A DNA stretch of 64,000 nt, from NCBI GenBank assembly GCA_013368375.1, contig JAACJP010000002.1:806001-870000 (forward strand), read 5' to 3'. The stretch comes from Tricholomella constricta. Lineage: Eukaryota; Basidiomycota; Agaricomycetes; Agaricales; Lyophyllaceae. The position numbers and the translations under genes were made by a program. The notes below the pieces were generated by a model that did no database searches, was not told the DNA's origin, and saw only the letters and a program-made list of their open reading frames with translations. Shown piece by piece: positions 6,055 through 39,179 of this stretch (position 1 is the stretch's first letter; each line of letters opens with the position of its first letter).

Positions 6055-6553
6055 GGTTCACTTCTTCCGGTCCTACCTAGTGGACCGCTACACTTCCTAT
6101 GCATGGAACATAGAGTCCTTTCCTAGGATGCGCACTGGTGTCAGGGTTGGCCAAGGGTATGCTCTGTCTCCAATCCTCTCAGCATTTCTGTACCTCGTGC
6201 CAGTGATGAGAATATTCCAGAAGAGAATTGAGGTGGACCTCTGTACTCTATTGTCATATGTGGACGATGGCTCCCTCATCGTCCAATCCAAATCATGGCA
6301 TGCAAATCTCATTTAACACAAAGAGGCCTATGCAGTCATCAACGAACTGGTGGATGTGATTGGTTTACTCCTTGAACAGGACTGAGGTCTTTCATTTCTC
6401 CCACAAAGCAACCAATGATAACCTATTGATTGACTTAGGCTATGCCTCCTACACAGAGGACAGCTCACTTAAGCCAAAGCGCATCTGGCGTTACTTTAGG
6501 TTCTATTTTGACAGAGGCCTTACATTCAAAGACCATGTCAAATTCTACGCTAC
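6055..6553 (+). mobile_element. LINE copy L1, left part (reverse transcriptase palm)
   Basis: This matches the reverse transcriptase of the LINE copies at 40900-41150 and 44020-44500. It has the LVDRYTSYAW, QGYALSPILSA and LSYVDDGSLIVQ motifs; YVDD is the catalytic site. A frame change near 6315-6370 (a copying slip around 'GLLLE') breaks the frame. The copy is 5' truncated and continues after the gypsy-2 insertion at 20052. The 5-bp target GCTAC is present once on each side of gypsy-2 (6549-6553 and 20047-20051). Confidence 0.85.
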
Positions 6554-6581
6554 TGTCAGGGGAACTCTTGTTGGTGCCCTC
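6554..6581 (+). repeat. 5' LTR of gypsy-2, first 28 bp (left of gypsy-1)
   Basis: These 28 bases match the start of the 3' LTR at 19542. The last five (CCCTC, 6577-6581) are the target site duplicated by gypsy-1. Confidence 0.93.
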
Positions 6582-6727
6582 TGTTACGGTCAAGGTTGAG
6601 ACAATAGACTTAGGGCGAGGGACGAAGCGTAGCAGCTATGAATGTGTTGATTGAACTAAGGAAAAAGTGTATCGTAAAATAACGCGTAAGTAAGTAGGTG
6701 AGACATAACGTAGTAGTGACCGTGACA
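6582..6727 (-). repeat. gypsy-1 3' LTR (146 bp)
   Basis: It is identical to 11590-11735 and has TG..CA termini. In element orientation this is the 3' LTR, directly after the polypurine tract. Confidence 0.95.
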
Positions 6728-9700
6728 TTATCCCCCTTTTAATGGTGGATCGAGGCGATTGGGAGGCCGAGAGACGCGACCTGTGTGAGTAGTAGTAGTA
6801 GGCGGAGGTACGTAAACAGAACGAGGATTTTCATGTATAGTAGGAGGAGAAACGGGACGAGGATGAGGAAACGACGACGAACCGTGAGCCGAACTCTGTT
6901 CACGACCGTCTACCGAGGTTGACACGGCTCCTGGCGTAACACCGGTTACGTCGAAGTGCGACACGGGAGACTCGGACGTAGAGAGGGGAAGTTCGGTCGA
7001 TGGAACATCTTGGGCGTCGTGAGTGGAACTAGTAGGTAAATTGTCAGTAATAAGAGAAAAGTGTTGTTGTAACGTAATAGGATGAGGCCTCGGGGCTCGG
7101 GGATGACGACGGTGGAAACGATCGATAAGTTCGTTGGCGGTAGTAGGGATGTCGGAGAGGGCGATCCAGGAATTTTCTGAGTCGGGAAGGGAGTGCCAGT
7201 GGACGAAGTATTCATAACGATGACCGATTTTACGAGAGTCGAGAATGTTGGAAATGGATGGGGTAGAGTCGGCGAGTTGGAAGGGTTGAGGAGAGGAGTG
7301 GGGATGGAATTCCGAAGGGTCTTGATAGGGTTCTAATAGGGAGGTGTGGAACACGGGATGGAGTCGAGAGAGATAGGATGGGAGGCGTAGCTGATACGTC
7401 TGCAAGCCGATACGACGAACGACTGGGAAAGGGCCGAGGCGTCGATGATCCAATTTGAGCGACGGCCTAGTCGTTCGAATGTTACGGCGAAGTAGCCATA
7501 CCAGTTGGTCGGGAGAATAGGATGGAGAGGGTAAGACCTTGGTGTCGAATATTCTCTTTTGACGATCTTGAGAATACTGAAGTTCGGCGCGTAGTTCGGA
7601 ATGGATTTGATCTAAACGTAGAGCTAAATCGTCAGCAGCAGGGACGGTAGAGACTTCAGAAAGTTTAGGAGTGAAGGTAGGATGGAAACCATAGTTGGCG
7701 TAGAATGGCGAATGTTTTGTTGACGAGTTTTCGGAGTTGTTGAAAACGAATTCTGCCAGGGGAAGGTAATCAACCCAATTGTCCTGCTGGTACGAGCAGT
7801 ACGCGCGCAGATAGCCCTCGAGAGTCTGATTAGTACGCTCTGTGAGGCCATCCGTGCGTGGGTGATAGGCTGTGGAGAAACGAGCGTCGATGTCGAGACG
7901 CGAAGTAAGTTCTTTCCAAAAGTTAGAAACGAAAAGGGTGCCACGATCCGAGATGATGGAATCTGGGAGACCGTGGTAGCGAAATATGCGATCTCTACGA
8001 ATAACCACGCGAGATCCGACGCGGTCATCGACTCTGTACAGGGAATGAAGTGCGCTGCATGCGTTAGACGATCACAAACGACGAGAATTGAATTGTAAGA
8101 ATGAGAATTAGGAAGCTTAACAATAAAATCCATAGAAATTGATTTCCATGGGCGTTCAGGGATGTCGAGCGGTTGTAGAAGACCATAGGGCTTGTGGCGA
8201 GGGATCTTGATACGATTACACGTATCGCACGCTGAGACGTAGCGGTGGACATACGTATAGATTCCCGGCCAAGAGTAGTCGCGTAGAATATTCTTGACGG
8301 TCAGAGTACGTCCAGGATGACCACCAAGTACACAATCATGGCGAGTATAGAGTATCTCGGCACGAAGGGACTTTGGTACGAAGACGCGACCGTTGTGGAA
8401 TACCATGTCATCTTGGGCCGTGAATTCCGTAGATCCATGAAGAAGTGCTTCTCGCCACTCGGAGTCTTCTTGGAACGCTGTTCGAAAACGCTTGAGGAGT
8501 TCAGAATTGTCGATGGCGAGTGTTGTAAAGGCAGAAATTGAAGACGAAGTAGACGAATCTGTTTCGGAAGAAGGAAAAATGCGTTTAGTGTGCGACGAAG
8601 TAAGAATTGTCTTTCGTTGAGCCTCCAGGACGTCATCCCCTTTTTGAGGTAGGAAATCGGGGCGCCTAGATGGCGAGTCGGCGACGTTCTGAGTACCTGG
8701 GGCCCAATCGAGACAGAAATCGAACTCGGAAAGAAACATAGACCACCGAGCTTGGCGGCGATTAAATAAACGAGAAGACATAAAATACTCAAGATTTTTG
8801 TGGTCGCAAACCACCGAAATGGGGACGGAGGTACCCATCAGCCAAGGACGCATATCGCGAAATGAATCGACGATAGCAAGGAGTTCCTTGTCGTGGATGT
8901 CGTAATTAATTTCGGCGGGCGAGAGTTTTCGAGAGTAGTAGGCGACGGGGTGAAGTCGATTACTCTCGTCGGGTTGCTGGAGAATACCTGAAAGAGCGAA
9001 ATCTGAAGCGTCAGTAGCAAGAGTAGAGGGTTTGGAGGGGTCGAAATGGCGCAAAACAGGGTACGAAGTAAAAGCGCGCTTAAGTTGTTCGAAAGACGAA
9101 CGCGCGGAATCTGTGAAGTCGAAAGGAATATTTTTGTGAGTTAACTTGTTCAAAGGAAGGGCAATTTTGGCGTAGTGATCCACGAAACGTCTGTAAAAAT
9201 TAGTAAAACCAAGGAAAGATTGAATATCACGACGGTTTCGAGGAGTAGGCCATTCGGCAATGGTAGCGAGCTTTTTGGGATTCATCTTGATACCGTCAGC
9301 TCCGATGAGGAAGCCTAGGTATTCGACCTCGGTCTTGTCAAACTCGCACTTCTTCGCGTTAGCAAAAAGACGAGCTTGTCGAAGTCGATCCAAAACCAAT
9401 TTGACTTGATGATCGTGTTCTTCTTGGTTTCGAGAGAATATCAGAATATCGTCGAGATAAACGACGCAGAAGACGCCGATATAGTCCCGGAGAGTGTCCT
9501 GAATAAAAGCCTGAAAAGTCGCTGGAGCGTTAGTCAAACCAAATGGCATAACCAAATATTCATAGAGTCCTAGTGGTGTCCGAAAAGCGGTTTTCCATTC
9601 ATCTCCTTCTCGAATGCGAACTAGATTGAATGCGTTCTTCAGGTCAATGACCGTGAAGAGTTTACATCCTTGCGTCCGATCCAAGAGATCATCGACGTGG

Positions 9701-11010
9701 GGGAGAGGATACCGGTTCTTCTTCGTAATCGCGTTAAGACCACGATAGTCCACGCAAAGACGTAAATCGCCGGTTTTTCGTCGAATAAAGAGGATTGGCG
9801 AGGCGGCAGAGGAAGTCGAGCGCCTAATAAACCCTTTCTTGAGATAATCATCGAGGTATTCGGAAAGGTACTTTTGCTCTTCCTGATTCAGTCGATAAAT
9901 CGAGCCGAACGGAGGCGTTTTCCCTTCATCGAGTTCGATAGATATATCGTAGGGTCGATGGGGCGGAAGGTGATTGACTTCTGTGGGAGAAAAGACAGTG
10001 TCAGCCCACGACATATACTTGGATGGTACGTGTTGGTATTGGTCGTTGGGTGGTGGCGCAGTCGGAACTTGGTCGTCAACTTCGTTTGAAGAGTCAGACG
10101 ACGTAGCCGCGACATAAACGGGTGAACCTGTAGGGTGAAAACGGAAAAGTGAAACGGGAGCGTGTTTAGCGTATTTGAGAAAACGCTGTGGCGTGGTGAC
10201 CGAAATGTTCGGCTTGGGCGTAGGCAAAGGATTATCTGTAGAGGAGCGACCGTAGCCGGTCCATTTAGCCAGAAAATTGAGATACGGTGGTGCCGAAGGC
10301 GTCTTGGGACGTGGTGGCAGCGTAAGTGTTGGCGTAGAAGACATAGGGGCGCTAGCGAGACCGAAGCCTAGGCCAGCCGTGGTGATGGGACAAGCTTGGA
10401 TGGATGTAGACATAGAACTTGGAGGCTTAAGACCGAAGCCTTTAGCTGGAACCGTAATTGGATACGTGGGTGTGAGATTGCAACAGTCGAGCGAAAGGTC
10501 AGGATTCGACCAATCAATTCGAGGGTTGTGGCGACGAAGCCAATCGAGACCTAGAATTACAGGGAATGGGACAGCGACAACACCTAATGCGATGCACTCG
10601 GAGTGTTTATCCACGGTTAGTTGCGTGACAACATCAGAAGAAACGAGTCCAGAGGCGATAGGACGATTGTCCACCGCTATTATCGGTACAGGTATGTCTT
10701 TAACGCGTCGCGGCAAGGAATGTCGCTTCGCAAAGACGTCCGAAATACATGATGCCGAAGCACCAGAGTCAACGAGAGCGAAAGTCTTGACAGACTTATG
10801 GTTCGGAAAATGAAGAGAAACAGAAATAAAGAAATGGTCGGGCGAAGAAATGTTCGTATCAGGAGGAAAATTATACCGAGGAGCATGGAATGACGAAACA
10901 CGTGTCCATTTCCCGTTATCGAGCCGAGAAGAGTGGACGACGGGCTCCGGAGTGGTCAGATGGGTCCTAGCATCATTATCCGGTAGCCCTTGGACCTCGT
11001 GAGGGGAACC
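6728..11010 (-). pseudogene. pol: gypsy-1 pol (PR-RT-RNase H-IN-chromodomain), one frameshift
   Basis: In order: aspartic protease (ALVDSGASASC, near 10770), reverse transcriptase with the VVYLDDILIFS active site, RNase H (ALSGILQQ, HDKELLAIV), and an integrase whose HHCC zinc site (HDCVLGGHPG...CDTCNR) leads into the DDE core (SMDFIVKLP, SDRGTLF). A C-terminal chromodomain reads YEYFVHWHSLPDSENSWIAL. The reading frame runs unbroken from just downstream of gag to about 8005 and then shifts by one base; the rest continues to a stop at 6728. The pol frame overlaps the end of gag in the -1 frame, so a programmed -1 shift is likely. Whether the integrase slip is real or an assembly error cannot be told here. 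The enzyme copies element RNA and inserts the DNA; chromodomains in this group steer integration to chromatin marks. Confidence 0.9.
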
Positions 11011-11012
11011 GG

Positions 11013-11558
11013 TTAGGCTTTTCCCGACTTGGGATCAGCCTTGGACGCAGACTTCGCTTGTCTGGCCCTCATGTCGCGTTTGGCGCGCTCGGACATATTT
11101 GGACAGTCATTAATAGAGTGCGCACCTTGACCACAATAAAAGCAGAGGTTATTAGCGCGACGGCGCTCACGTTCAGTGGGGTTAACCTTTCCACGACGCA
11201 AACTGTCGACTTCCATTGGTACGACGTCCGAAGACGACGAAGACGACGAAGCGTGCGGAGCCTGGTGAGGAGGTGCCGGAGGATCGCGTGGCTGAGTCAA
11301 AGTTGTCGAACTGGATGATTTGCCACGATGTTCCTTGAGTTCCGTTTGACGACGATGAATCCTATTGTCGATAGAGATGATAGTCTTCACGTAATCGTCG
11401 AAAGTCTTGGGACGAGGGAGGATGACCATGGCGTCCTTGACCGATTCTTTGAGTCCAGGATAGAAGTTGTCGATCTTGGAATCTTCGTCGAAGTTGAGAT
11501 CGGCGATGATTTCGCGGTAGCGAGACGCATAGTTGGCAGCAGATCCAGGTTCAGACAT
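11013..11558 (-). CDS. gag: gypsy-1 gag, N-terminally truncated
   Basis: The 181-residue ORF begins inside what is normally the middle of the capsid region (AANYASRYREI, FYPGLKESVKDAM) and ends with a CCHC zinc knuckle, CFYCGQGAHSINDC, followed by a basic tail. Fungal chromovirus Gag is usually about 300-400 residues, so roughly half is absent. A start codon is present and the LTR-to-gag leader is about 30 bp, so the deletion seems to have produced a neat short ORF. It could be a non-autonomous form that relies on Gag from full copies. Confidence 0.8.
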   Translation of the reverse strand: MSEPGSAANYASRYREIIADLNFDEDSKIDNFYPGLKESVKDAMVILPRPKTFDDYVKTIISIDNRIHRRQTELKEHRGKSSSSTTLTQPRDPPAPPHQAPHASSSSSSSDVVPMEVDSLRRGKVNPTERERRRANNLCFYCGQGAHSINDCPNMSERAKRDMRARQAKSASKADPKSGKA

Positions 11559-11575
11559 AGATGCGTAGTTTTAGG

Positions 11576-11587
11576 TAGTTCAATCAA
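11576..11587 (-). promoter_or_regulatory. gypsy-1 self-primer binding site
   Basis: Read on the minus strand the site is TTGATTGAACTA, two bases inside the 5' LTR. It is perfectly complementary (12 of 12) to TAGTTCAATCAA within the same LTR (11655-11666). This is the arrangement of Tf1/sushi-type elements, where the RNA 5' end folds back to prime reverse transcription. Confidence 0.75.
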
Positions 11588-11589
11588 AC

Positions 11590-11735
11590 TGTTACGGTCA
11601 AGGTTGAGACAATAGACTTAGGGCGAGGGACGAAGCGTAGCAGCTATGAATGTGTTGATTGAACTAAGGAAAAAGTGTATCGTAAAATAACGCGTAAGTA
11701 AGTAGGTGAGACATAACGTAGTAGTGACCGTGACA
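11590..11735 (-). repeat. gypsy-1 5' LTR (146 bp)
   Basis: It is identical to 6582-6727. The predicted RNA start (TAGTTCAATC...) lies at 11666, reading leftward. Upstream of it is an AT-rich TTATTTTACG stretch that may serve as a weak TATA. Confidence 0.95.
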
Positions 11736-11740
11736 CCCTC

Positions 11741-12217
11741 CGACACTCACCGATCGTTCCCCAACTCACGCGATCGTCCCCGACTGACCGATCACGATCC
11801 CGACCCCGACGCTCCGACCCAAGCGTCGGTGTACATACTTACTTACTTCCTGTCGTTTCCCCTCCCTCCCTGCGCGCGCCCGACGCGGATCCCGACGACC
11901 CGACACCCCGACGTCGGCTGTCCCGCCTCGTGCCCATACCCTGAGCCACGAGGATCGGACAGCGTCGGGAACGTGTCCATACACGCGCCGCACACCATTC
12001 GTTATTATTACATGTACAGTACACTCTGGGGGACCGGCCCTCACGTCCTACACTCGTATATAGTCGGCCCTCTGGCATCGGGGAATCCTTTACACTATTC
12101 TCTTCAGATTCCCCTTTGCCAGGTAAGCCTTACCTACATTTGTTACTGTACATCAATATAACTTCGGATTCCCCTTTGCCAGTGTGACCCAGCTCCGCTC
12201 CGAAGGTCGCCCTAACA
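11741..12217 (+). repeat. 5' LTR of gypsy-2, remaining 477 bp
   Basis: It continues the LTR after gypsy-1 and ends CCCTAACA. It contains a TATATA box (12057-12062), the predicted RNA start TTTACACTATTCT (12089) and an intron-like module (12123-12182). Confidence 0.93.
12123..12182 (+). other. Intron-like 60-nt module in gypsy-2 U5
   Basis: The donor is CCAG|GTAAGC and the acceptor TTTGCCAG|. The 21 bases ending at the donor exon are repeated almost exactly (one mismatch) at the end of the module. The same layout, again 60 nt, is in LTR-B (14067-14126), and it is present in the 3' LTR, the solo LTR at 13163 and the reverse-strand LTR at 21882. Confidence 0.6.
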
Positions 12218-12219
12218 GC

Positions 12220-12232
12220 AGAATAGTGTAAA
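12220..12232 (+). promoter_or_regulatory. gypsy-2 (variant A) self-primer binding site
   Basis: AGAATAGTGTAAA begins two bases after the LTR. It is complementary over 13 bases to TTTACACTATTCT at 12089-12101, which lies 32 bp downstream of the TATA box start and so probably at the RNA 5' end. Confidence 0.8.
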
Positions 12233-12343
12233 GCTGAGACCCGACGAAGCCGACCGATCAGCCTCCGCGCCGAAACACATGTCTGCTACACGCAACCCGT
12301 CCAGCACGCGCCCGCTCCGATTGTCGCCCAGTCCCGTCTCGAG

Positions 12344-13719
12344 ATGTCTGACTTTGGTGAATTCGACACGCCTCCGTCTCCTGCTGCGCTCACGCCAGAG
12401 GAACGGCTGGCGAGCCTTGAAACTGCAATGTCGGCTCTCTCCCAATCCAACACCACCAACTCGGCCACCATGGACTGCATCGCCGCTCTTTTAGATACCA
12501 TCAGTTTGGGGAACCCCTCCGCTGCCTCCCCAGCAGCACCTATGACCCCCGACGCCGGCGCAGCCCCTGCCGACGTCCCCTCCCCCTCTGCGATCAGGAT
12601 CGCACATTCGGCCGTCGCCCCCTCCCGTTTACGATGGCACTCGATCGGGCGGCCGCGCCTTCTGGAACGCGTGCCAGCTCTACTTCTCCCTGAGCGTCGG
12701 ACAGTTCACCGACGACCATGCCCGAATCAGCTGGGTGTTGTCGTACATGCAACACGGTCGCGCTGCCAACTTCGTCGGTCGGGTCTTTCAGTATGGATCG
12801 GTAAAGCGCGCATTCCCGACCTGGAAAGACTTCGCGTCGAACTTCGAGAAGAAGTTCTTCCTGTTCGACGAGGTCGCCAATGCTGCGCTCACCCTTGAGT
12901 CAACAGCGTACTTCCAGAATGGGCACACCATCGACGAGTACATCGACTCGTTCAAGGCCCTGTGGATCAAGGCCGATTATCCAGACGGCCGCCGTCTGGT
13001 CCTCAAATTCCGTCGGGGCATGGACCCGAAGCTCTCAAGGAGGCTTGGGAGCATCACCACGGGTCGGCCCGATGACTCCAACATCGAGGACTGGCTAGCG
13101 ATCGCCCGCTCCCAGGACTTCATCATGAGGACCGAGGAGGACTTCCACCGTCGGTCGGCCCCTGTTAGGGGAACACCCGTTCGCGCCCTCCTACGCTCAT
13201 CGACCGTCCCTCGACACGTGCGATCGCTCCTCCCTGATTGCGATCCTGACCCTGATGCCCTGACTCCTGTCGTTTCCCTCCCTTCCCTGTTCAGGCCTGA
13301 CTCTGTTTCCCGATCACCCGACATCCCGACAACGGTTACCATCAGACAGCATCCGGAACCGCTCGTTATTATCACATGTACAGTACACTCGTATATAGCC
13401 GGCCCCCTGGCATCTGGGAATCCTTTACACTATTCTCTTTGGATTCCCCTTTGCCAGGTAAGCCTTACTTACCTTCGTTTGCTGTACATCAATATAACTT
13501 TGGATTCCCCTTTGCCAGCACGACTAAGCTCTGCTCTAAGGTCGCCCTAACAGCCTCGATAGTCCCGACTGCGAGTCACCTGACTGCCCCCATCCCGACG
13601 CCTGTGGTCGCGCCCATGCTCCAATGGTGACCCACTGCCCCACTGACCGCTCCCGCTCGTGTGTCGGCACCGGCGCCCTTTCTCAACACGCCCATGACGC
13701 CGTCTCTTCCCCCAGGTGT
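12344..13719 (+). pseudogene. gag: gypsy-2 gag, variant A, broken and interrupted
   Basis: The start matches gag variant B (MSDFGEFDTPPSPAALTPEERL versus MSEFGEF...). A frameshift near 12600 moves the reading into the frame carrying YMQHGRAANFVGRVFQYGSVKRAFPTWKDF and EYIDSFKALWIKADYPDGRR, a retrotransposon Gag capsid signature. At 13163 a solo LTR interrupts it. The remaining Pro-rich linker runs from 13553 to 13719, where LTR-B cuts in. No zinc knuckle remains in this copy. Confidence 0.85.
13163..13552 (+). repeat. Solo LTR (gypsy-2 family) inside gag A
   Basis: It starts TGTTAGGGG and ends CCCTAACA, like the other LTRs, but is about 390 bp because of internal deletions. The flanks GCCCC (13158-13162) and GCCTC (13553-13557) fit a 5-bp target duplication with one change. 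Confidence 0.8.
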
Positions 13720-14161
13720 TGTTAGGGGAACTCCCTTTCGCACCCTCCGACGCTCATGCGATCGTTCCCGACTGTTCACGATCCCGACCCCCGATGCTCC
13801 GACCCAAGCATCGGTGTATACACTTACACACTTCCTGTCTTTTCCCATCTCTCCCTGCGCGCGCCCAACGCCGATCCTGACCACCTGACATCCCGACGTC
13901 GGCACTCGTGCCCGTACCCTGAGCCACGAGGATCGGACAGCATTGGGAACGTGTCCATACACGTGCCACAGACCATTCCTTGATTATTATGTACAGTACT
14001 CGTATATAGTCAGCCTACTGGCATTGGGGATCCTTAGTCTATTCTCTTCGGATTCCCGTCTGCCAGGTAAGCCCCTCTTTACATTCCTTACTGTACTTAA
14101 TATAACTTCGGATTCCCCTCTGCCAGTACGACTCAGCTCTGCTCGTGAGATCGCCCTAACA
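13720..14161 (+). repeat. LTR-B (442 bp) of a diverged gypsy-2 family member
   Basis: The same termini (TGTTAGGGG...CCCTAACA), a TATATA box (14003-14008), the predicted RNA start TTAGTCTATTCT (14034) and the 60-nt intron-like module (14067-14126) are all present. It is clearly more diverged from the outer LTRs than they are from each other. It is inserted in the gag A linker after GGTGT. No matching downstream LTR-B was found, so its right half has been lost or exchanged. Confidence 0.88.
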
Positions 14162-14163
14162 GC

Positions 14164-14175
14164 AGAATAGACTAA
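14164..14175 (+). promoter_or_regulatory. gypsy-2 (variant B) self-primer binding site
   Basis: AGAATAGACTAA, two bases after LTR-B, pairs over 12 bases with TTAGTCTATTCT at 14034-14045. It differs from the variant A site exactly where the LTR-B primer differs. Confidence 0.8.
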
Positions 14176-14289
14176 ACCTGAGACCCGACAAGGCTGACCG
14201 ATCAAGCCCCCGCGTCGAAACACGTGTCTGCTACACGCAATCTGTCCAACGCGCGCCCGCTCCAATCGTCGCCTGAGTCCCGTCTCGAG

Positions 14290-15515
14290 ATGTCCGAATT
14301 CGGTGAATTTGACACGCCTCCATCTCCTGCTGCGCTCACGCCAGAGGAACGATTGGCAAGCCTTGAAACCGCGATGTCGGCTCTCTCCCAATCCAACACC
14401 ACCAACTCGGCCACCATGGACCGCCTCGCCGCTCTTTTAGATACCCTCATCTTGGGGAACCCCTCTGCTGCCTCCCCAGCAGCACCTACAACCCCCGCGA
14501 CGCCGGCGCAACCTTCGCCGACGTCCCCTCCCCCTCTGCGATTGGGATTGGGATTGCACATTCGGCCGTCGCCTCCTCCCATCTACGATGGCGCGCGATC
14601 AGGCGGACGCGCCTTCTGGAATGCGTGTCAACTGTACTTCTCGTTGACTACCGGGCAGTTTTTCGATGACCACGCTCGGATCAGCTGGGTGCTGTCGTTC
14701 ATGCAACATGGTCGCGCTGCCGACTTCGGCGGTCGCGTCTTTCAGTACGGATCGGTGAAGCGCGCATTCCGACCTGGAACGACTTTGCATCGAACTTCGA
14801 GAAGGAGTTCTTCCTGTTTGACGAGGTCGCTGACGCCGCACTCACACTCGAGTTGACGGCGTATTTCCAGAACGGGCGCACCATCGACGAGTACATAGAC
14901 TCGTTCAAGGCCCTGTGGGTCAAGGCCAACTACCCGGATAGTCGCCACCTGGTCCTCAAGTTCCGTCGGGGCATGGACCCGAAGCTTTCGAAGCAACTCA
15001 GAAGCATCACCACGGGTCAGCCCGACGACTCCAAGATCGAGGACTGGCTAGCGATTGCTCGCTCCCAGGACTTCATCATGAGGACAGAGGAGGACTACCA
15101 CCGTCGCGCGCCTCCGGCAATCCCAACAAGTAGTCGCCCGACCGCCCCCATTCCAACGCCCACAGTCGCGCCCGCTCTCCACTGGCGACCCTCTGCGCCA
15201 CCAGCCACTCCTGCCCGCGTGTCGGCTCCGACGCATGTTGCGCATGCCCCCCGGGCACCGGCTCTCTCCCCCGGTGTCCCTATGGACATTGATCGATTCA
15301 CCGGTCGCCCTGTTCGTGACGACAAATGCCGTCGGTGCAAACAACCAGGGCACTTCTGGCATGACTGTCCATTGCGCTTCGATGTGCGCCACATCATGCC
15401 GGAGGAACTGAATGAGCTGATCATGCAGCTACTGGCGCGCAAGGATGCGATCCCGGCTGACTTGACTCCCAAGTCGGCCGACCCGACCGCCTTGGCCACG
15501 GAAGAGGATTTTTAG
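14290..15515 (+). pseudogene. gag: gypsy-2 gag, variant B, one frameshift
   Basis: Gag begins MSEFGEFDTPPSP and has an N-terminal helix rich in SxxE, a Pro-rich linker, and the capsid core (GGRAFWNACQLYFSL, FMQHGRAADFGGRVFQYG). One missing base near 14767, in a CCC run of the variant A copy, shifts the frame. The continuation (LTAYFQNGRTIDEYIDSFKALW) is open from about 14850 to the stop at 15513-15515. A CCHC zinc knuckle CRRCKQPGHFWHDC lies near the C-terminus, preceded by a PMDIDRFTGR motif. About 408 codons in all, a normal Gag length. A single indel inactivates it. Confidence 0.88.
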
Positions 15516-15751
15516 TTGCACAACGGGTGAAAAGTACGCCCCCGTTGTCTAGTCGTAATCGGTTCGCCCCCCTATCTGTAGAGTACCCCAATATACTTAA
15601 TATTGCTGCTACTTCTACAGGTGAACCAATCGACGAAGACGTACAATCCTCCCCTGACCAATCGCCCTCTCCTTCGGTCGCTCCGACCAAGCCGACCACA
15701 CCGTCGCGTCGCAGACTACCCCGCTGAGAAAAACAACTACCCCGTCGCTTC

Positions 15752-18700
15752 GTGATCGCCACCTCCCCCGACTCCTTATCCCTGTCAGTCAAGGTCGAGC
15801 TCGAGACCACCGACACCCAGGAGACGCACTCGCTCACTGCCCTTGTCGACAGCGGAGCCACTGGATGCTTCATTAACACCGCCTTTGTTGAGAAGCACAA
15901 GCTGAAGACCCGACAATTAAACCGCCCGACACTAGCCTATAATGTTGATGGAACACCTAACCAAGCGGGCGCATCAGATATGTTGTAGACGCGGTTCTAC
16001 GCTACGACGGTCACTCCGAACGGGTGCTGTTCGCGGTCGCAGGCATCGGAAAGCAGGATCTCATCCTTGGATTCACCTGGCTTCGAGACTACAACCCCGA
16101 CATTGATTGGGCGACGAAGAAGGTGAAGATGAGTCGGGCGCCGACGTGTTGCGACACCTGCAAGGTCGAGGCCAAGGAGGAGTGGCGCTCGCGCACCAAA
16201 CTGCGAGCCGCCATTCGGGCCTGTCGAGCAAAAGGGATCCCGTCCACTGAACCCGAGCTGAGGGCCCCGACCAATCCCTACGTCGAGGACGACTCTGACG
16301 CCAACGAGTTCCTCCCTTACACCCCAATCATGGAGGAACCCGATCCAGAGTCGGACGACTTCCTTGTGGAGACCTTCCTGAATGGCGATCGCATCTTTGC
16401 GACTGCGATCCACCCCCCTCCGACCGTAACACACATCCGCGCTAGTCAAACGACATGGCAGCGACTCGCTGAAGCGCACACTGCGAACTCTGTGCCCAAG
16501 TCGTTCCGCGATGCCGTTCCAGCCCACTCCACGACTTTGAGGACGTCTTCTCCAAGGTCGCGTTCGATGAGCTTCCCGATCACAAGCAGTGGGATCACGC
16601 GATCGAACTGGAGCCAGGCGCGTCGCCGTCTGGCACCAAGGTCTACCCACTGTCGCCGGCGGAACAAGTTGAACTCGACGCGTTCCTCAAGGAGAACCTC
16701 GAGTCAGGTCGGATCCAACCGTCAAAGTCGCCTATGGCATCGCCGGTGTTCTTCATCAAGAAGAAGGACGGAACACTCCGACTGGTGCAGGACTATCGGA
16801 CGCTCAATGCGCTCACAGTGAAGAATCGGTACCCGCTGCCCCTCATTAGCGAACTGGTGAACAACCTTTGCAGCGCGCGGTACTTCACCAAGCTGGACGT
16901 CCGATGGGGGTACAACAATGTTTGGATCAAGGAGGGCAACGAGTGGAAGGCAGCGTTTCGGACGAACCGCGGTCTCTTCGAGCCGCTCGTCATGTTCTTC
17001 GGCCTCACAAACAGCCCCGCCACATTCCAGACCATGATGATTGACATCTTCCGCGATCTGATTGCGGAGGGTGTTGTTTGCGTGTACCTCGACGACATCT
17101 TGATTTACACCAAGACTCTCGAAGAACATCGTCGGGTCGCGCGACTCGTGCTGGACCGACTCCGCGAGCATAAGCTGTTCTTAAAGCCCGAGAAATGCGA
17201 GTTCGAGCAGACCAAGATCGAGTATCTTGGGCTGATCATTTCGCAAGGGCAAGCAGAGATGGACCCGGTTAAAGTCGCAGGAGTGTTGGAATGGCCGGCG
17301 CCGAAGAACAAGAAGGAAGTGCAAGCGTTCCTGGGCTTCACCAATTTCTATCGATGGTTCATCCAGGACTTCTCGCATCACGCCCGACCCCTGTTCGATC
17401 TGACGGGCAAGGACGTTGCCTGGCGGTGGGGAGAGTCGGAGCAGTCGGCCTTTGACCTCCTGAAGTCTGCAATCACATCGCGACCGGTGCTCAGGTTCCC
17501 CGACAATGACCGACCGTACCGCATCAAAGCTGACTCGTCCGACTTCGCGACGGGCGTGGTCCTGTCGCAAGAGTCGCCGTCCAATGGCAAGTGGCACCCG
17601 TTTGTGTTCTACTCGAAGAGCTTGAACGCAGTTGAGCGGAACTACGAGATCCATGACAAGGAGATGCTGGTGATCATCCGGTCTCTGGAGGAATGGCGAC
17701 ACTTCGTCAAGGGCGCAAAGCACAAGGTGGAGATCTGGACCAACCACAAGAACCTTGAGTACTTCCTCACCACGAAGAAACTCAATCGGCGGCAAGCCCG
17801 ATGGTTGCTCTACCTTGCCAACTTCGAATTTGCCCTCCACCACCATCCTGGACGCAGCATGGGCAAGCCCGACGCGCTGATCATGGCAACGGAAGCGGCG
17901 ACAATGCCGGCCGACATCGTACTCCTCAAGCCCGAGTTCTTCGCGATTCGCACGACCGAGGGTCTTGTACTGGTCGGAGAGGAGGACGATGTGGTAAAGG
18001 CGATTCGCAAGGGCAATCACAACGGCCCACAAGAAGATGCAGTCGCTAAGGCGGCTCAACTGGTCAAGGCTTCCAAGGTCGCCGGCCGCTCCCTATGCTT
18101 CGGCGAGTGGGGGGAGGAAGGCGGTCTGCTCACGTTCCGGGGACGGATCTATGTCCCGAACGTTCCTGACCTTCGCCGACGCATTGTGGAGCAGCATCAC
18201 GACTCCAAGGTCGCCGGTCACCCGGGTCACTGGAAAACGTTAGAGCTGGTGTCGCGTAACTACTGGTGGCCCCAGATGTTGCGCTTCATCGGTTCATACA
18301 CCAGCACCTGCGACATGTGCTTGTGCACAAAACCCCGCTGCCAACTCCCCGTCGGACAGCTGCAGCCGCTCCCAATTCCCGAAGGCCGATGGAATGTCGT
18401 GTCGGTGGACTTCATCATCGAACTCCCCGAGTCCAACGGCCACGACGCGATCATGAATGTCGTGGATTCAGTCAGAAAGCGCGCACACTTCATCGCATCG
18501 CATACGACCTGTTCAGCTTTGGGAGCTGCCAACCTCTACCGTCGCCACGTCTGGAAGCTGCACGGTCTCCCCGACGCATTCGTCTCCGATCGAGGTCCAC
18601 AGTTTGTCACCGAGTTCACGCGTGAACTGTACAGACTCCTGGGTATCAAACTGTCGGCTTCGATGGCGTACCACCCACAGACCGACGGACAGACTGAGCA

Positions 18701-19514
18701 TGTCAACCAGGAGCTGGAACAGTTCTTGCAGGTCTTCTGCAACGAGCGCCAGAACGACTGGGAGGACCTCTTGCCTGACGCCGAATTCAGTTACAACAAC
18801 CATGTACATTCGGCGACGCAGCAGGCCCCCTTCCTGCTCGACACTGGTCGGCATCCGCGTATGGGCTTTGAGCCGCGTTGGGGCGCTTCCAAGAATGAGT
18901 CGGCTGACGAGTTCGTGGAGCGCATGAAGGAAGCACAGGAGGAAGCCAAGGCAGCACTTTCAAAGGCAAAAGACGACATGGAGCGATATTACAACCAGCG
19001 ACATGCTCTAGCACCCGACTACCAGCCTGGTGACAAGGTGTACTTGGACGCGACCGACATTTCCACGACCCGACCATCTAAGAAATTGTCGCATCGCTAC
19101 CTTGGCCCTTTCGTCGTGCAAAGACGAGTCGGCCCGCTCGCATATTGCCTCCTGTTGCCTCAGTCCATGAAGCGCATCCACCCAGTCTTCCACGTCGTGA
19201 AGCTCATCCCCGCCGTCGCTGACCCGATTGAAGGTCGGCAGTCCGCTCCACCGCCGCCGCCAGACATCATCGACGACGAGCCCCATTACGAAGTCCACAA
19301 AATTCTCGACAGTCACATCTTCCGCAAGAAACTCCAGTACAAAATCTTGTGGAAAAGCTACGGTTACAAAGAAGCTTCATGGGAACCTCGCAAAAATGTC
19401 GCTGCCCCTGACCTAGTACGCAAGTTCCACCGCGACAACCCTGACGCCGCCCGCCACATTCGTGGCATATTCACGCTATCCCCCGCCGTCTTCGCCACTG
19501 TCACTCTGCACTGA
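15752..19514 (+). pseudogene. pol: gypsy-2 pol (PR-RT-RNase H-IN-chromodomain) with two frameshifts
   Basis: The protease starts at about 15752 with ALVDSGATGCFIN (catalytic DSGA). A slip near 15970 moves it into the frame starting at 16024 (GIGKQDLILGFTWLRDYNPDIDW). A second slip near 16535 leads into the long frame that includes 16734-19514. This frame carries reverse transcriptase (FFGLTNSPATFQ, VYLDDILIYT), RNase H (ATGVVLSQ, HDKEMLVII), the integrase HHCC site (HHDSKVAGHPGHW...CDMCLC), the DDE core (SVDFIIELPE, VSDRGPQFV, HPQTDGQTEHVNQELE) and a chromodomain (YKILWKSYGYKEASWEP). The 926-codon block from RT to chromodomain is uninterrupted, so damage is confined to the protease and linker. 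Confidence 0.9.
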
Positions 19515-19541
19515 GCTGTTGCAATTCAAAGGGGGGGGTGA

Positions 19542-20046
19542 TGTCAGGGGAACTCTTGTTGGTGCCCTCCAATGCTCACCGATTGTTCCCCGACTCACGC
19601 GATCGTCCCCGACTGACCGATCGTGATCCCGACCCCGACGCTCCGACCCAAGCGTCGGTGTACATACTTACTTACTTCCTGTCATTTCCCCTCCCTCCCT
19701 GCGCGCGCCCGATGCCGATCCCGACGACCCGACACCCCGACGTCGGCTGTCCCGCCTCGTGCCCATACCCTGAGCCACGAGGATCGGACAGCGTCGGGAA
19801 CGTGTCCATACACGCACCGCACACCATTCGTTATTATTACATGTACAGTACACTCTGGGGGACCGGCCCTCACGTCCTACACTCGTATATAGTCGGCCCT
19901 CTGGCATCGGGGAATCCTTTACACTATTCTCTTCAGATTCCCCTTTGCCAGGTAAGCCTTACCTACATTTGTTACTGTACATCAATATAACTTCGGATTC
20001 CCCTTTGCCAGTGCAACCCAGCTTCGCTCCGAAGGTCGCCCTAACA
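19542..20046 (+). repeat. gypsy-2 3' LTR (505 bp)
   Basis: It pairs with the split 5' LTR (6554-6581 plus 11741-12217). The primer region is variant A (TTTACACTATTCT at 19918), not variant B. It is followed by the target repeat GCTAC. Confidence 0.94.
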
Positions 20047-20051
20047 GCTAC

Positions 20052-20805
20052 CAAGTCACTCACCATGGTGAAAGCCGTGGTAATGTTTGGCAACTCGTCA
20101 CGAAGGATCACCCCCTACAAAAATGTCTCCTCTACCGTGCATGCGTGTTGCCCCTAGCCATGTACAGGTGCAGGTTATGGACATATAAAGGTGCTTGTAA
20201 CAAGATAGTTATGAAGTCACTTGCACAGATGCAACACAAGATGGTGCTCTGGATATTTGGTGCATTTCGCACATCTCCTGGTGGAGAGGTGGAGACCCTT
20301 GCAGGCCTCCCACCCGTCCATCTGCACATCAAGGAACTGGTTGACTGCTCATTTGCCCAGACTTGTACACTTCTGAACACCTATCCAACACACTCTCTCA
20401 TAAGTGCTTGGCATGGTCTATTTAGAGGGGAGGAATTCCACTCCTGTGCCATATCAAGTATGGCACTCTCATTGCAGAAGCAAGTCAAATCTTCTGTAAT
20501 AGATGCAGAGGCAAATGTCTCTGTTGTCACCGAGCCCAAGAACTCCCAAGAACTCCCTCCACGAGGAGGCCACACCAGGGCAACGACCTTGACATTCCTG
20601 GGATAAAGAGGCCCTAGCTGACTGCAACCATTTGGATGTGCTTTGTACTGAGGGAGGCCTGGATCCATGAATCATTATGGTTGCAGCAGACACCTCAGTC
20701 CCTACGGACAATTGACTCCAGGCAATTATTTCCTGTAGCTGGCAAAGCTACCTTGGAAAATGTTGAACTCGCAGCCATTTCAATGGATGTAGACAAAGCA
20801 GTAAG
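20052..20805 (+). mobile_element. LINE copy L1, right part (RT thumb to start of RNase H)
   Basis: The LINE continues after gypsy-2 with the KSLTMVKAVVMFGNSS and LAMYRCRLWTYKG segments. It keeps a 20-base stretch (about 20281-20300) that copies L2 and L3 lack, giving GAFRTSPGGEVETLAGLPPVHL in one frame. Later parts decay, with deletions in the linker and a degenerate RNase H start (20700-20800). No poly-A tail is present. Confidence 0.82.
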
Positions 20806-21029
20806 GTAGAGGCCATCCATCGCCAACTAACGTCATGTGACATTGTGTGACACTCACAAAAATGGTCGTCTCGAGACAGATTCATCCGTAGAACTCGAGA
20901 ATCATGGGTTTCAAATATTCTGCCTCCATAGGATCATTGTAATGTATATCTGGTATCTATATGTCACGACGATTAAATTATAAGTAAGATATGAGCCCAA
21001 AATTTACAAAATAATGGTGTGGTGCATCT
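20806..21029. other. Unassigned AT-rich interval
   Basis: It lies between LINE L1 and the next LINE fragment. I see no open frame with a family signature and no inverted repeats. Confidence 0.3.
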
Positions 21030-21881
21030 CATTGAATGAGGTAGGTTCTTTTGTCTTGTAGTATTCCTTGCCAGGTGCTTTTCATGAGGGAGGGGCGGAG
21101 CACCCTTCTTCCATATTTGTGTCTATTGGTCATGAGGCAGTCGAACTTGAGCTTTTTGTTTATTGCTTGGATCTACTTGTTTTGGACTGTGTCAACTTTT
21201 GGGATCTCCTTCTCTTATGATTTTCCAATTGCACCTCAGCTTCTATATAAGGTGGGTTGATTCGGATATCACGATTGTGTAGAGTCTAGTAAGCCCAGTA
21301 TCTACTTTATTCTGTTGGTTCATGAGGTTTGTCGCCCTGCACCTGAAGATTGCTCCAAAGCTTGGGTTAGTGTGCGGTATTTCCTTTTTTTCAAAGAGTT
21401 TCCCTACTAGTTTCCAGATCACTGATTGGCCTGTGTTGCAGCACTGGGTGAAGATGTGTTCCATTAATTATTCTAGGTCACACTCCTGGCAGGATTCCCT
21501 AATTTCAGAATTTGGGATGTTATTTCAGTAGCTACCTACCTTGTAGGCATTATGCATCGATTTCCATAGGTATGCACTAATTATTCTTGGATATATTTTT
21601 ATTTCTAAGGGATTTTTATATGTTCGTGTCAGTGGGCATGGACCCTGTGATATCAGAAACAGTGTGGTGTGTCATATCAAGGTTTATTGTGGTACCTCGT
21701 TACGGCTTTGGGTGTCGTTTTTTGAGTAAGCCTTTGTACAGGATAGCTTGTGCGATACTAGTGAGTTTTGCTCTGGAGACGTCATAGGGTTTGGGTATTG
21801 CTAAACCAATCTCATCTGTATGGTCCTTGTTGGCGCCTAGGCTGGCTAAAGTGTCAGCCCCATCATTCCCTACATCCCCGC
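21030..21881 (-). mobile_element. LINE fragment of a second family (RNase H end and C-terminal zinc region), L9
   Basis: Reading leftward from 21881 the frame shows the end of an RNase H domain (GNDGADTLASLGANKD, the last catalytic Asp being in GADTLA). A linker follows, then a Cys/His segment (SCQECD...MEHIFTQCC) and WKLVGKLF...ESTHLIWKLRC, the usual C-terminal region of RNase H-bearing fungal non-LTR elements. Several in-frame stops are present. The reverse-strand gypsy-2 copy cut it at 21882. Confidence 0.7.
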
Positions 21882-22382
21882 TGTTAGGGCGACCTTACGA
21901 GCGGAGCTGCGTCACACTGGCAAAGGGGAATCCGAAGTTATATTGATGTACAGTAAACAAAGGTAAGTAAGGCTTACCTGGCAAAGGGGAATCTGAAGAG
22001 AATAGTGTAAAGGATTCCCAGATGCCAGGGGGCCAACTGTATTTGAGTGTAATGTGTGAGGGCTAGCTCTCCATAATGTACTGTACATGTAATAATAACG
22101 AGTGGTCTGCGGTGCGTGTATGGACATGTTCCCAACGCTGTCCGATCCTTGTGGCTCAGGGTACAGGCACGAGGCAGGACAGCCGAGTCGGGATGTCGGG
22201 TTGTCAGGATCAGCGTCGGGCGTGCACAGGGAGGGAAGGGAAATGACAGGAAGTAAGTAAGTATGTACACCAACACTTGGGTTGGAGTGTCGGGGTCGCG
22301 AACGTGATTGGGTGGGAGCAATCGCATGAGTCGGGGGACAATTGGTGAGCATTGGAGGGCGTGAAAGGGAGTTCCCCTAACA
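21882..22382 (-). repeat. gypsy-2c 3' LTR (501 bp)
   Basis: It has the same termini and internal landmarks as the 19542 LTR, including the variant A primer sequence and the intron-like module. It is inserted in the RNase H of LINE L9. Confidence 0.9.
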
Positions 22383-27934: not shown

Positions 27935-30390
27935 TTTTTTTTTTTTTTTTCTTTTTGAAATCTATATTTATACCCCAGTGCCTGGTCGCAGTCCGGCTGG
28001 TGTGTAGTACATGATATATCTACAGTGACAGTAATGGTGTTGCATGTAACGTGTGCATCTCGATATGCAGGCCGCTTGGAAGAGTCCCGCGTGGGGGCAG
28101 AATCTGCCAAATAGCGAGGGTGTGGTCGCTGAGAGGTTCCAAGTTGCAGAAGGACCCCTCCGCCTTGGCGGTGGGGCTAGCTTAGCCCTCCCGAGGGAAG
28201 GTACCACAGGAATGACCCCGAGGCCCCCTTCTGACGGTTAGGTACCAATCAGTCGAGTAGCCCGGCGCCTTGTTGCTGGTCGGCAAACACCAGTCCAGCA
28301 GCAATTGCTTCGTCTCGCCGTAGCAAGCAGAATAGTTCAGGTACCCAGATGAGATCTTCTGGGCATGCTGGTTGGTCGTGCAGGCCCTCGTCAGGCTGCA
28401 TGCGGTGTGCTAATCTGCGGCGATTCACCTGATCAGGTGGTTTCTGCTTTGGTCTGGCCTTGGGAAAGGGTGGAGGTGGATTTTCGCTTGGGAAAGCGAA
28501 GGTCCGTGGGTTGACCTCGAGGAATTCGAGGTAATTCTTATGTTCGAGGTGTGCCGGGGCCCGGCGCTTCCTCGTGTATCTGGGACATTGGTCCAGGATG
28601 TGGGCTCTGGTTTCGAGCCCTCCGTTGTGACAGGAGCAGTTCACCTCCTCAGAAAGGTTAAACCGCCTCCGGTACTCGCCAGTAGGGGCGTGATTGAGGA
28701 TGCTACGAGACATCCGAGCGGTATGGGCATTTGACTTGCCCATTACTTTAAGCCATGGGCTACCATCAAGGTGTGATGGTGCTATTGGCTTGGCTTTCCT
28801 TTTTGTTTGAAGGAACGATCTGCCACTGTATTCAGGCTGCTGGAATAGACGAGTCCATTCCTTCAGCATCTGTTCAACAGTGCGTTTGTGTGCATAATCT
28901 AGTGATGTGCGCGAGCGAGGTCCTTGTGGCACTTTCAGCTGCGTAGCAGCCTCATGTGACGAGAAGTGAATATCCCACCGCAAACGGCTTGGGACGTGGA
29001 TGAATTGCACATGGCGGTCTGGATGGTCAGACAACCAAGTACGAAGTTTGGAGCAGATTGCAATCGAATGCATCTGACCTGAATGTAGACTGGCATCCAA
29101 AGCCCACTTAATGGCCTTGGTTGAGTCCGAGAAGACCAGAATTCTGTTTGAGTCTGGTCGTTGAAGTGCTTTGCCAACAGCCATTGCGATGGCTACGAGT
29201 TCAGCATCGTCTGAGGTAGCTTTGCCGGCCACCTGCCGGGATACACTGGGACCTACGTCCCCGTAGATGAGGGTGCAAGCAATAATTGCCTGGAATCGAT
29301 TGTCAGTGGGGACCGAGACGTCCGCTGCAACCATGACGGTTCGCGGATCCAGGCCTCCCTCAGTGCGAAGCGCATCCAAGTGGTTGCGTCGATCAGCTAG
29401 GGCCTCTTTATCCCGGGGGATGTCAAGGTCATAGGTAATTTGGGCTCCAAACAAATCGGAAACCCGTTGCCCTGGTGTGGCCTCCTCGTGGAGGGGGTTC
29501 ATGGGCTCAGTGACAACAGAGGTGTTTGCCTCCGCGTCCATCACAGAAGATTTAACTCGCTTCTGTAATGAGGGTGCCATACTTGATATGGTGCAGGGGT
29601 GGAATTCCTCCCCTCTGAACAGACCATGCCGCGTACTCATGAGAGAGAGTGTTGGATGGGTGCTCAGGAGTGTACGAGTCCGGGCGAAAGAGCGATCGAC
29701 CAGTTTCTTGATGTGCAGATGGACAGGTGGTAAGCCTGCCAGGAGATGTGCGAAATGCACCAAGTATCCAGAGCGCCGCCTTGCGTTGCATCTGGGTGAG
29801 TGACTTCATAACCATTTTGTTACGGCCTTTATATGTCCATAACCTGCACCCGTACGTGGCCAAGGGCAGCACACAGGCGCGGTAAAGGAGACGTTTTTGA
29901 GAGGGGGTGATCCCCCGCGATGAGTTGCCAAGCATCACCATGGCTTTCACCGTCGTGAGTGACTTGGTAGCGTAGTATTTGACATAGTCTTTGAATGTAA
30001 GACCTCTGTCAAAATAGAACCCAAGGTAGCGCCAGATGCGCTTTGGCTTGAGTGGGGTGTCCTCTGTGTAAGGGGCATAGCCTAGATCAATCGATGGGTT
30101 ATCATCGGTTGCTTTGCGGGAGAAATGAAAGACTTCAGGTTTGTCGTGTTCAAGGAGTAAACCAATTGCATCCACCAGTTCATTGATGACTGCGTAGGCT
30201 TCCTTAAGTTTAATGAGATTTGTATCCCATGTTTTAGATTGGACAATGAGGGAGCCATCATCCACGTATGACATTAGAGTACAGAGGTCTACCTCGATTC
30301 TCTTCTGGAAAATTCTCGTCACTGGCACAAGGTACAGTGCAGAGAGGATTGGAGACAGAGCGGACCCTTGGCCAACCTCGACATCAGCCA
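27935..30390 (-). mobile_element. LINE copy L2 (RT end, RNase H, 3' UTR, poly-A)
   Basis: The poly-A tail appears as T-run 27935-27956. The 3' UTR follows, then RNase H and C-terminal region in frame at 28249-29763, and the RT part at 29552-30390 in another frame. RT shows LMSYVDDGSLIVQ. The two frames are separated by the 20-base deletion discussed in the findings. The 5' end is cut at about 30390 and abuts element X1. L2 keeps Trp and Gln codons where L3, L7 and L8 have stops, so it is the least damaged RNase H of the set. Confidence 0.9.
28249..29763 (-). pseudogene. LINE L2 RNase H plus C-terminal zinc-like region
   Basis: The 504-codon frame has an RNase H domain (VAADVSVPTDNRF, ATSDDAELVAIAMAV, LVFSDSTKAIKWALD). 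It is followed by a long C-terminal region with a Cys/His cluster (CSCHNGGLETRAHILDQCPRY) like the tail of fungal RNase H LINEs, and ends AGLLD. The first codons (VHFAHLLAGLPP) are out of frame with RT. In the L1 copy the two are fused, so this is a split ORF, not a natural start. Confidence 0.85.
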
Positions 30391-35389: not shown

Positions 35390-36180
35390 GTCTCCCCTGG
35401 CCACTCCAGCACTCCCAGGACACACACTGGGTGTGCCCTTACCAATCTGGGCTTTGTTCATTGTGCTTGCCATTGTTGAGCACCGGGCCTCCTCCTCCTA
35501 CCTCAAACCTCCTCCAGCATCTCCACACCATCCCCAGCGTGCCATCGACACCTCCCCTGGCTCCTCCACTACCCCCAGGATGCTCGCTAAGTGCGTCCTC
35601 GCCAATGTTGAGCCTGGTCATCGTGCTCGACGATGTCGAGCCCCAGGCCGCCTCCTCCCACCTTCAAACTCCACCAGCACCTCCCCACCACCCCCAGCGT
35701 GCCATCGACACCTCCCCTGGCTCCTCCAGCACCCCCAGGACGCACGCTAAGTGCGCCCTTGCCAACGCTGGGCCTCGTTCATCGTGCTCGCTGACGTCGA
35801 GCCCCAGGCCCCCTCCTCCCACCTCCACCACCTCCACAACATCCTCACCACCCCCAGTGTGCCATCGACACCTCCCCTGGCTCCTCCAGCACCCCCAGGA
35901 TGCACGCTAAGTGTGCTCTTGCCAATACTGGCCCTTGGTCATCGTGCTCAACGATGTCGAGCCCTAGGCCCCCTCCTCCCACCTCCACCACCTCCACAAC
36001 GTCCCCATTACCCCCAGCGTGCCATCAACACCTCTCCTGGCTCCTCCCGCACCCCGAGGATGCACGCTAAGTGCGTCTTCACCAACATTGGGCCTGGACA
36101 TTGTGCTCGATGATGTCAAGCCCTGAGCCCCCTTTTCCTACCTCCACTACCCTCACAACCTCCCCACTGCCCCCCAGCAC
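35390..36180. repeat. Minisatellite, about 160-bp unit, 5 copies
   Basis: The core (T/C)ATYGTGCTCgacGATGTcGAGCCC recurs near 35456, 35617, 35776, 35938 and 36097, each followed by CCTCCTCCCACCT and GTGCCATCGACACCTCC. Pro/Ser-rich frames across it are by-products. Confidence 0.85.
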
Positions 36181-36315
36181 CCCTTGCTCTCTCTCAATCC
36201 ATTCACATATCTAGGTTACTTTACTTGTAATCCTCGTAGCCACTCCAATACAAATTCACTGTCTCTGTGTGACTGTGACAAATTTTTGGTTGCTTCTTAT
36301 CGTCCACCATCTGAC

Positions 36316-38244: not shown

Positions 38245-39179
38245 GCTGTGGCAAAGGAAGCTGACTTCCTCGAACACCATGTACAAACATGTCAAATCCA
38301 AACATGTCTGCAGGCGAGCGATTGGGTTCTGCTCGAATCTGCATCCGATGCTGGTTCCAGCTCTCAACAAAGGAGGTGAGCTGAGCATTAATGCTATCAA
38401 GAAATAGCAAGTGCATATGAACACTCCTAAAGATAATTATAAGCTTGATATATGTACTTGAAGAGTCTGACTTACCTCCCCCATATATAAGATCCACGCT
38501 GTTCTCCTTGATTAGTTTCCATCCATGCTGCAACGAACAAGTTTTCCATCCCATGATCTCCTCGAAGGCGAGACGGAACTCCATAAAGTTGGCAAGCAAA
38601 AAGAAATAGATCAAGCACTGTTTGTGCTGCATTATTGTTGTGCTCGCAAAGCAGTAATGAGGCGAGAATAACCGTCGATGAATCCATGGATTACAATTCC
38701 CCAGCGAATAAGCCCTGTATTGATATTTTAGAATCTCTAATAAGTTCAATAATCAGCAAAATCAACAAACCATGCTGTCCATCATGGTGCCAAAGTGAGT
38801 TGGGACCTGGTACATTGTATACACGCCGACAAATCTTAATACACTGAAAAATTCTTTGCACAGGGTCTATGCGATGCAGAGATTGTCGAATGCGTTCACG
38901 TTGAAGACGATGGCCTTGGCTCCGAAGTGAACCATCAATCATGGTAATTCCTGCCTGAGGATGTGTTTGACGGATAGCTAGGATAAGATGATCCAGTTCA
39001 TCATCTGTCATGGTCGAGAGAAGCCCAGTATAAGAGGAAATTCGAGGAGGATTATTAGAACCATCAGGATTTTCATCCCACCAGTCTTCAGGAGAAGTGA
39101 CATTGTCAGATGAATACTCCATAGATAATGTCCAAGGCTGTTCTTGAGGCTGCGCAATTCCATGCTCAAGAAGTTGAGA
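38245..39179 (-). pseudogene. Integrase-like (DDE) transposase remnant, multi-exon
   Basis: Reading leftward: an N-terminal block (SYTGLLSTMTDDELDHLILAI, RRVYNVPGPNSLWHHDGQHG) with the first Asp in HHDGQ; then about 38472-38690 (CQLYGVPSRLRGDHGMENLFVAAWM, YIWGR); then a C-terminal block (FVESWNQHRMQIRAEPNRSPADMFGFDMFVHGVRG). This is a retroviral-integrase-like transposase family that I recall as common in basidiomycetes. Intron-like gaps separate the blocks. LINE fragments cut both ends, and no terminal repeats remain. Confidence 0.7.

Follow-up and report, generated by a model that had tools for sequence, protein, structure and literature searches.

Two variants of an LTR retrotransposon, here termed A and B, lie in a 64,000-nt stretch of the Tricholomella constricta genome (contig JAACJP010000002.1, positions 806001-870000; hereafter the window), and in each of them a short LTR sequence is complementary to sequence just inside that LTR. 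This raises the question of whether the 5′ end of the element's own RNA serves as primer for reverse transcription and whether the copied primer then rewrites its binding site. The answer favored here, with a probability of roughly 0.85 on the basis of sequence comparison, is that these elements form a family of chromodomain-bearing Ty3/gypsy LTR retrotransposons in which reverse transcription would start by Tf1/sushi-type self-priming, the copied primer rewriting the site.

Family LTRs in the window begin with TGTTAGGG or TGTCAGGG and end with CCCTAACA, and the site starts 2 nt (GC) past the LTR (Table 1). A is a single element spanning 6554-20046, because 5-bp GCTAC duplications flank it, before 6554 and after 20046. 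A second element, E2 (TSD GAGGG), interrupts its 5′ LTR, and within its gag lie a solo-like LTR and B, present there as a 5′ fragment. The 3′ LTR at 19542 was considered as belonging to B and rejected, as the GCTAC duplication assigns 19542-20046 to A; judging from the arrangement of the sequence, B's own 3′ LTR was probably lost by recombination with the gag-pol region of A. In the interval 13163-20046, the B fragment within A's gag is followed by a single pol and then by A's 3′ LTR, an arrangement that recombination between B and A with deletion of the 3′ part of B would produce.

Several further features were observed. Intron-like GTAAG...CAG stretches of 60-61 nt lie in U5 between primer and site (12123-12182, 13458-13518, 14067-14126, and 19952-20011), their final 20 nt matching the preceding 20 nt at 19 or 20 of 20 positions, and in three C-lineage copies (L086/L007, L092, and L140) the U5 stretch is 61 nt shorter (67 vs. 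128 nt), a loss for which splicing and repeat deletion would give an identical product. At 27942-29678, 39178-40358, 49304-50388, and 54261-55997 lie long repeats, in one or the other orientation, that are 97-99% alike; one of these holds a 504-aa ORF (28249-29763) without a Pfam match, and an RNase H-like label assigned to it by eye was consequently dropped. Five tandem 160-nt units, of which the later four are 60-76% alike to the first, are found at 35392-36191.

Table 1. Retrotransposon features in the 6549-22382 interval of the window; primers, binding sites and RNA starts are putative.
Feature	Position	Strand	Remark
A 5′ LTR, first 28 nt	6554..6581	+	severed by E2 insertion; TSD GCTAC 6549-6553
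E2, second chromodomain element inside A's LTR	6582..11735	-	TSD GAGGG; pol in two overlapping frames
E2 putative primer-binding site TTGATTGAACT	11577..11587	-	2 nt (GT) past its LTR
E2 putative self-primer AGTTCAATCAA, 11 nt	11655..11665	-	
A 5′ LTR, remainder	11736..12217	+	ends CCCTAACA
A TATA box, 5′ LTR	12057..12062	+	35 bp upstream of putative RNA start
A putative 10-nt self-primer ACACTATTCT	12092..12101	+	RNA +1 would be A at 12092; 13-mer of the sequence-only reading starts at 12089
Intron-like GTAAG...CAG stretch, 60 nt, U5 of A	12123..12182	+	last 20 nt match preceding 20 nt at 19/20
A putative primer-binding site AGAATAGTGT	12220..12229	+	2 nt (GC) past LTR end 12217
A junction base 11	12230	+	first leader base beyond putative primer
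Solo-like LTR, A-type primer, within A's gag	13163..13552	+	
B 5′ LTR	13720..14161	+	TGTTAGGG...CCCTAACA
B TATA box	14003..14008	+	33 bp upstream of putative RNA start
B putative 10-nt self-primer AGTCTATTCT	14036..14045	+	
B putative primer-binding site AGAATAGACT	14164..14173	+	
B junction base 11	14174	+	most parsimony steps of any lineage B column
B gag-like ORF	14224..14856	+	without Pfam match
pol ORF	16734..19514	+	RT, RNase H, integrase zinc finger, SH3_Tf2-1, chromodomain
A 3′ LTR	19542..20046	+	A-type primer at 19921-19930; TSD GCTAC 20047-20051
LTR of related element, A-type primer	21882..22382	-	

The sequence-only reading had paired TTTACACTATTCT at 12089 in the LTR of A with AGAATAGTGTAAA at 12220, and TTAGTCTATTCT at 14034 in the LTR of B with AGAATAGACTAA at 14164, each preceded at 31-32 bp by TATATA; both pairs were located in the sequence at these places, as were the TATATA boxes (12057, 32 bp, in A; 14003, 31 bp, in B), and the A-type 13-mer recurs at 13424, at 19918, and, on the minus strand, at 21999, each time in another LTR of the window. 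The block common to A and B had been given as the six bases AGAATA and proved to be AGAATAG (7 nt) plus a T at base 10, while the remaining differences, said to match each element's own LTR, are real and comprise only bases 8-9 within a 10-nt primer (see below) and one T outside it. The longest leader/LTR complementarity is 14 nt in A and 12 nt in B, whereas 5000 first-order Markov resamplings of each yielded at most 12 nt (once) for A and at most 11 nt (three times) for B. Priming by a tRNA, which is common among Ty3/gypsy elements and would make the LTR match incidental, is very improbable here: complementarity of 12-14 nt is rare by chance and has been kept through three primer types, and TGG, the complement of a tRNA 3′ end, was sought in the first 30 nt past the A and B LTRs and found past neither, a result that excludes a canonical tRNA 3′ end as primer.

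Assignment to the Tf1/sushi type draws on the pol ORF as well as on the pairing. A chromodomain (Pfam Chromo, 1.4e-12, residues 852-900) lies at the integrase C-terminus, as it does in E2, and the start of R in the LTR is complementary to a site just past the 5′ LTR; the integrase core scored below its curated Pfam cut-off (25.4 vs. 32.6). Tf1 and Tf2 of Schizosaccharomyces likewise combine a chromodomain pol with complementarity between the RNA 5′ end and a site just past the 5′ LTR, and the SH3_Tf2-1 match in the present pol extends the likeness, the Tf1/sushi placement resting on Pfam and on Tf2-like names. The best named relatives of the pol protein are Tf2-like polyproteins of Lyophyllum shimeji (76% identity over 99% of the query), a likeness at the protein level that points to an agaric-like fungus as the probable host. 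Unlike in Tf1/Tf2, the primer here would be 10 nt long (11 in E2). E2 repeats the same layout, its putative primer being AGTTCAATCAA and the site, TTGATTGAACT, again beginning 2 nt past the LTR; both are unchanged in all 14 copies (13 collected copies and that in the window). According to the accessible parts of published accounts, self-priming has been demonstrated in Tf1 and is elsewhere deduced from primer/site matches.

It is proposed that transcription starts at an A approximately 33-35 bp past the LTR TATA box, and that the initial 10 nt of the transcript, which are complementary to the site 2 nt past the 5′ LTR, would fold back onto it. Cleavage past the tenth base, as in Tf1, would then free an RNA 3′ end to act as primer. 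If this primer stays on the minus strand it would be copied during plus-strand synthesis, giving a new site that matches its own LTR over exactly 10 nt; a change in the LTR primer would thereby be carried into the site, and lineages could drift with pairing intact. The predicted probability of primer:site pairs is 0.89-1.0 in A, with or without the intron-like stretch, and 0.89-1.0 in E2 except for one end pair at 0.61. In B it is 0.52-0.63 (0.37-0.45 without the intron-like stretch). The Tf1/Tf2 RNA is described, in the available text, as a three-duplex ‘pretzel’ fold (PMC10085805); here, the primer duplex is predicted for A and E2, and is absent from the best predicted fold of B.

Copies of the family are numerous in this genome. 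They were collected from the assembly (44.1 Mb, 118 contigs) by similarity searches, in which 40 of 641 and 40 of 634 candidates were scored, and by site-pattern searches giving 106, 129, and 108 matches, of which about the first 100 of each were listed; the last of these, with only site base 6 fixed, compares with 106 for the fuller pattern. The resulting 180 loci contained 182 site-bearing places, which became 149 distinct copies after merging of identical 480-base stretches, with 25 listed places outside the set. Three copies with no recognisable primer were dropped, two bearing LTR changes that break pairing (L060 and L066) and one without the primer stretch (L065), leaving 146 of the 149 scored.

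Covariation of LTR primer and leader site beyond that of neighboring bases, which the sequence-only reading had predicted, was borne out. Primers are of three types, ACAC (66 copies), ACTC (41), and AGTC (39), and site bases 8-10 are complementary to the copy's own primer in 144/146 (TGT with ACAC, 64/66; AGT with ACTC, 41/41; ACT with AGTC, 39/39), although the copies are related, so that such counts are not independent events, and only three primer types exist. The site has thus drifted while pairing was kept, as had been claimed. The two exceptions, L070 and L076, each carry a single change at base 8, and L081 has a change at base 2. No copy among the 146 scored combines a primer of one type with the site of another. 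Of the 108 columns scored across U5 tail, site, and leader, column 8 of the site is the best predictor of primer type (coefficient 0.64) and column 9 the second best (0.54), ahead of each of the 106 others (0.49 at most).

The matching has a sharp limit past base 10, at the same base in every lineage scored. Mismatches at bases 1-10 number 0, 1, 0, 0, 0, 0, 0, 2, 0, and 0 in 146 copies (3/1460), the invariance of bases 1-7 being partly by construction since the copy search relied on them (with no more than one mismatch tolerated on either side), while bases 8-13 were free; at bases 11, 12, 13, and 14 they number 34, 32, 97, and 145 of 146. The 12-13 nt primer of the sequence-only reading is accordingly not upheld, as bases 11-13 do not track the LTR; one T outside the 10 nt has been lost from the LTR of B, yet site base 13 is still A in 32/32. 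Since matching ends after base 10, the RNA start would be the A that follows TTT in TTTACAC or CTT in CTTAGTC, 33-35 bp after the TATA box, and the primer 10 nt long; both the TATA spacing and the base-10 limit fit, as far as sequence goes, an RNA 5′ end that coincides with the primer 5′ end. A T directly precedes this putative +1 A in 146/146 LTRs (TTT 113, CTT 32, and TCT 1), and A is therefore the templated base at position 11. Self-priming elements in which selection alone maintains pairing through slow compensatory mutation, the primer leaving its site unwritten, would also covary, as would any system with a pairing requirement, and the one-sided changes in L070, L076, and L081 accord with such a process; a limit at the same base across all scored lineages and the lack of cross-type copies in 146 speak against it, and it is considered unlikely.

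Two recombinant forms carry the argument further. In lineage D (18 copies), 16 of 23 diagnostic R/5′U5 columns are A-like, 4 C-like, and 3 neither, and the site is A-type, whereas the U5 tail is C-like at 7/9 and the leader at 8/11 (1 A-like, 2 neither). The nearest diagnostic bases to the left of the site, at -16 and -12, are C-like in 17/18 and 16/18 copies, respectively, with none between -12 and the site. The single copy L074 is C-like at 28/29 R/5′U5 columns and has a C-type site, whereas its U5 tail is B2-like at 9/13 (3 C-like, 1 neither) and its leader at 33/34; on its left flank the last B2-like base is at -17, and the nearest diagnostic base, at -12, is C-like. Both D and L074 have a site that matches their own primer although the flanks belong mostly to another lineage, the outcome predicted for a copied primer that rewrites the site, and this arrangement counts likewise against compensatory mutation alone. 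Ordinary recombination or gene conversion could have moved primer region and site jointly or as two short tracts; the elements are mosaic throughout, and a recombined tract of ~20-25 nt around the site would suffice for, and is possible in, both L074 and D. In each case, however, this would require one additional crossover separating R from the U5 tail and a further one near base 10/11, which makes this account quite unlikely, and rewriting by the copied primer is the simpler one. It is from the mosaics together with the sharp limit that site rewriting is deduced, and covariation and mosaics together support the Tf1/sushi-type self-priming, with rewriting of the site, that the sequence-only reading had put forward.

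The first leader base beyond the primer, base 11, varies repeatedly. In lineage B it requires 7 parsimony steps, the highest of 611 columns (32 copies; next 5), and in a wider alignment 6 steps, the highest of 1333 columns (29 copies), where seven others reach 5. Among the 117 majority-A columns of the 611-column analysis, 13 show C and no T; base 11 takes 7 steps and none of the rest more than 2. Departures from A in the 146 copies are to C in 30 (A 2, B 6, B2 4, C 1, and D 17), to G in 4 (A 1, B 1, and C 2), and to T in none. The 17 C residues of D were rejected as substitutions, since comparison of its leader CTCTTAG with the AACTCTAG of lineage C reads better as one inherited 2-nt deletion at the junction. 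Single-base insertions or losses of A also occur there (L006, L067, L078, and L094), the A-run slipping easily. In trees of A, B, C, and D, homoplasy at base 11 is clear only in B, with 2 steps each in A and C and 0 in D. The corresponding base of the E2 leader, next after its 11-nt site, has changed from A to G in 1/14 copies (L190) and the next ten bases are unchanged in 14/14; another copy, L192, has two changes farther into the leader.

MMLV-type enzymes are described, in the accessible text of one report, as adding C first almost always on capped RNA (+CAA, then +CCA and +CC), and mostly A, C, or G on uncapped RNA (PMC6885630). The resemblance of the base-11 spectrum to these additions is suggestive, the comparison being with another enzyme and noticed after the fact. 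A tentative reading, held at somewhat less than even odds, is that base 11 is a mutation hotspot recording run-off copying of the RNA 5′ end, where reverse transcriptase may add an untemplated or cap-directed base, chiefly C, that becomes fixed in the new site.

Related proposals exist for other fungal and plant elements. For Tosmo1-3, Tcry1, and Tj1 of fission yeasts, site-primer pairing was likewise deduced from sequence, and the Tosmo elements show mosaic diversity among them; unlike here, the available text describes neither copy-by-copy covariation nor a limit at the primer 5′ end (PMC10085805, PMC4600332). Self-priming has been proposed, in the parts of the reports consulted, for Tcn1 of Cryptococcus, a basidiomycete chromovirus, and for the plant Tcn1 clade (PMC7175516, PMC6317226), a likeness taken from published descriptions rather than sequence comparison, whereas for SM-Tcn1 the accessible text reports that neither tRNA nor self-priming was found (PMC2864245). 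Within the accessible parts of the open PMC literature on self-priming, a scope outside which most subscription papers fall, neither copy-level covariation nor a junction hotspot is described. The kind of mechanism is already known; what is new is the copy-by-copy evidence and the finding that a base marking the 5′ end of the primer varies repeatedly.

The three types of primer and the two recombinant forms present in a single genome provide natural evidence for rewriting of the site by the copied primer, and from the point where matching stops the RNA start is predicted to the base. Should the hotspot be real, retrotransposon RNA starts could be mapped from genomes, which would also allow the behavior of reverse transcriptase at a capped end to be probed, and if the reading offered for it is true, the genome would hold a fossil record of each retrotransposon's capped mRNA start.
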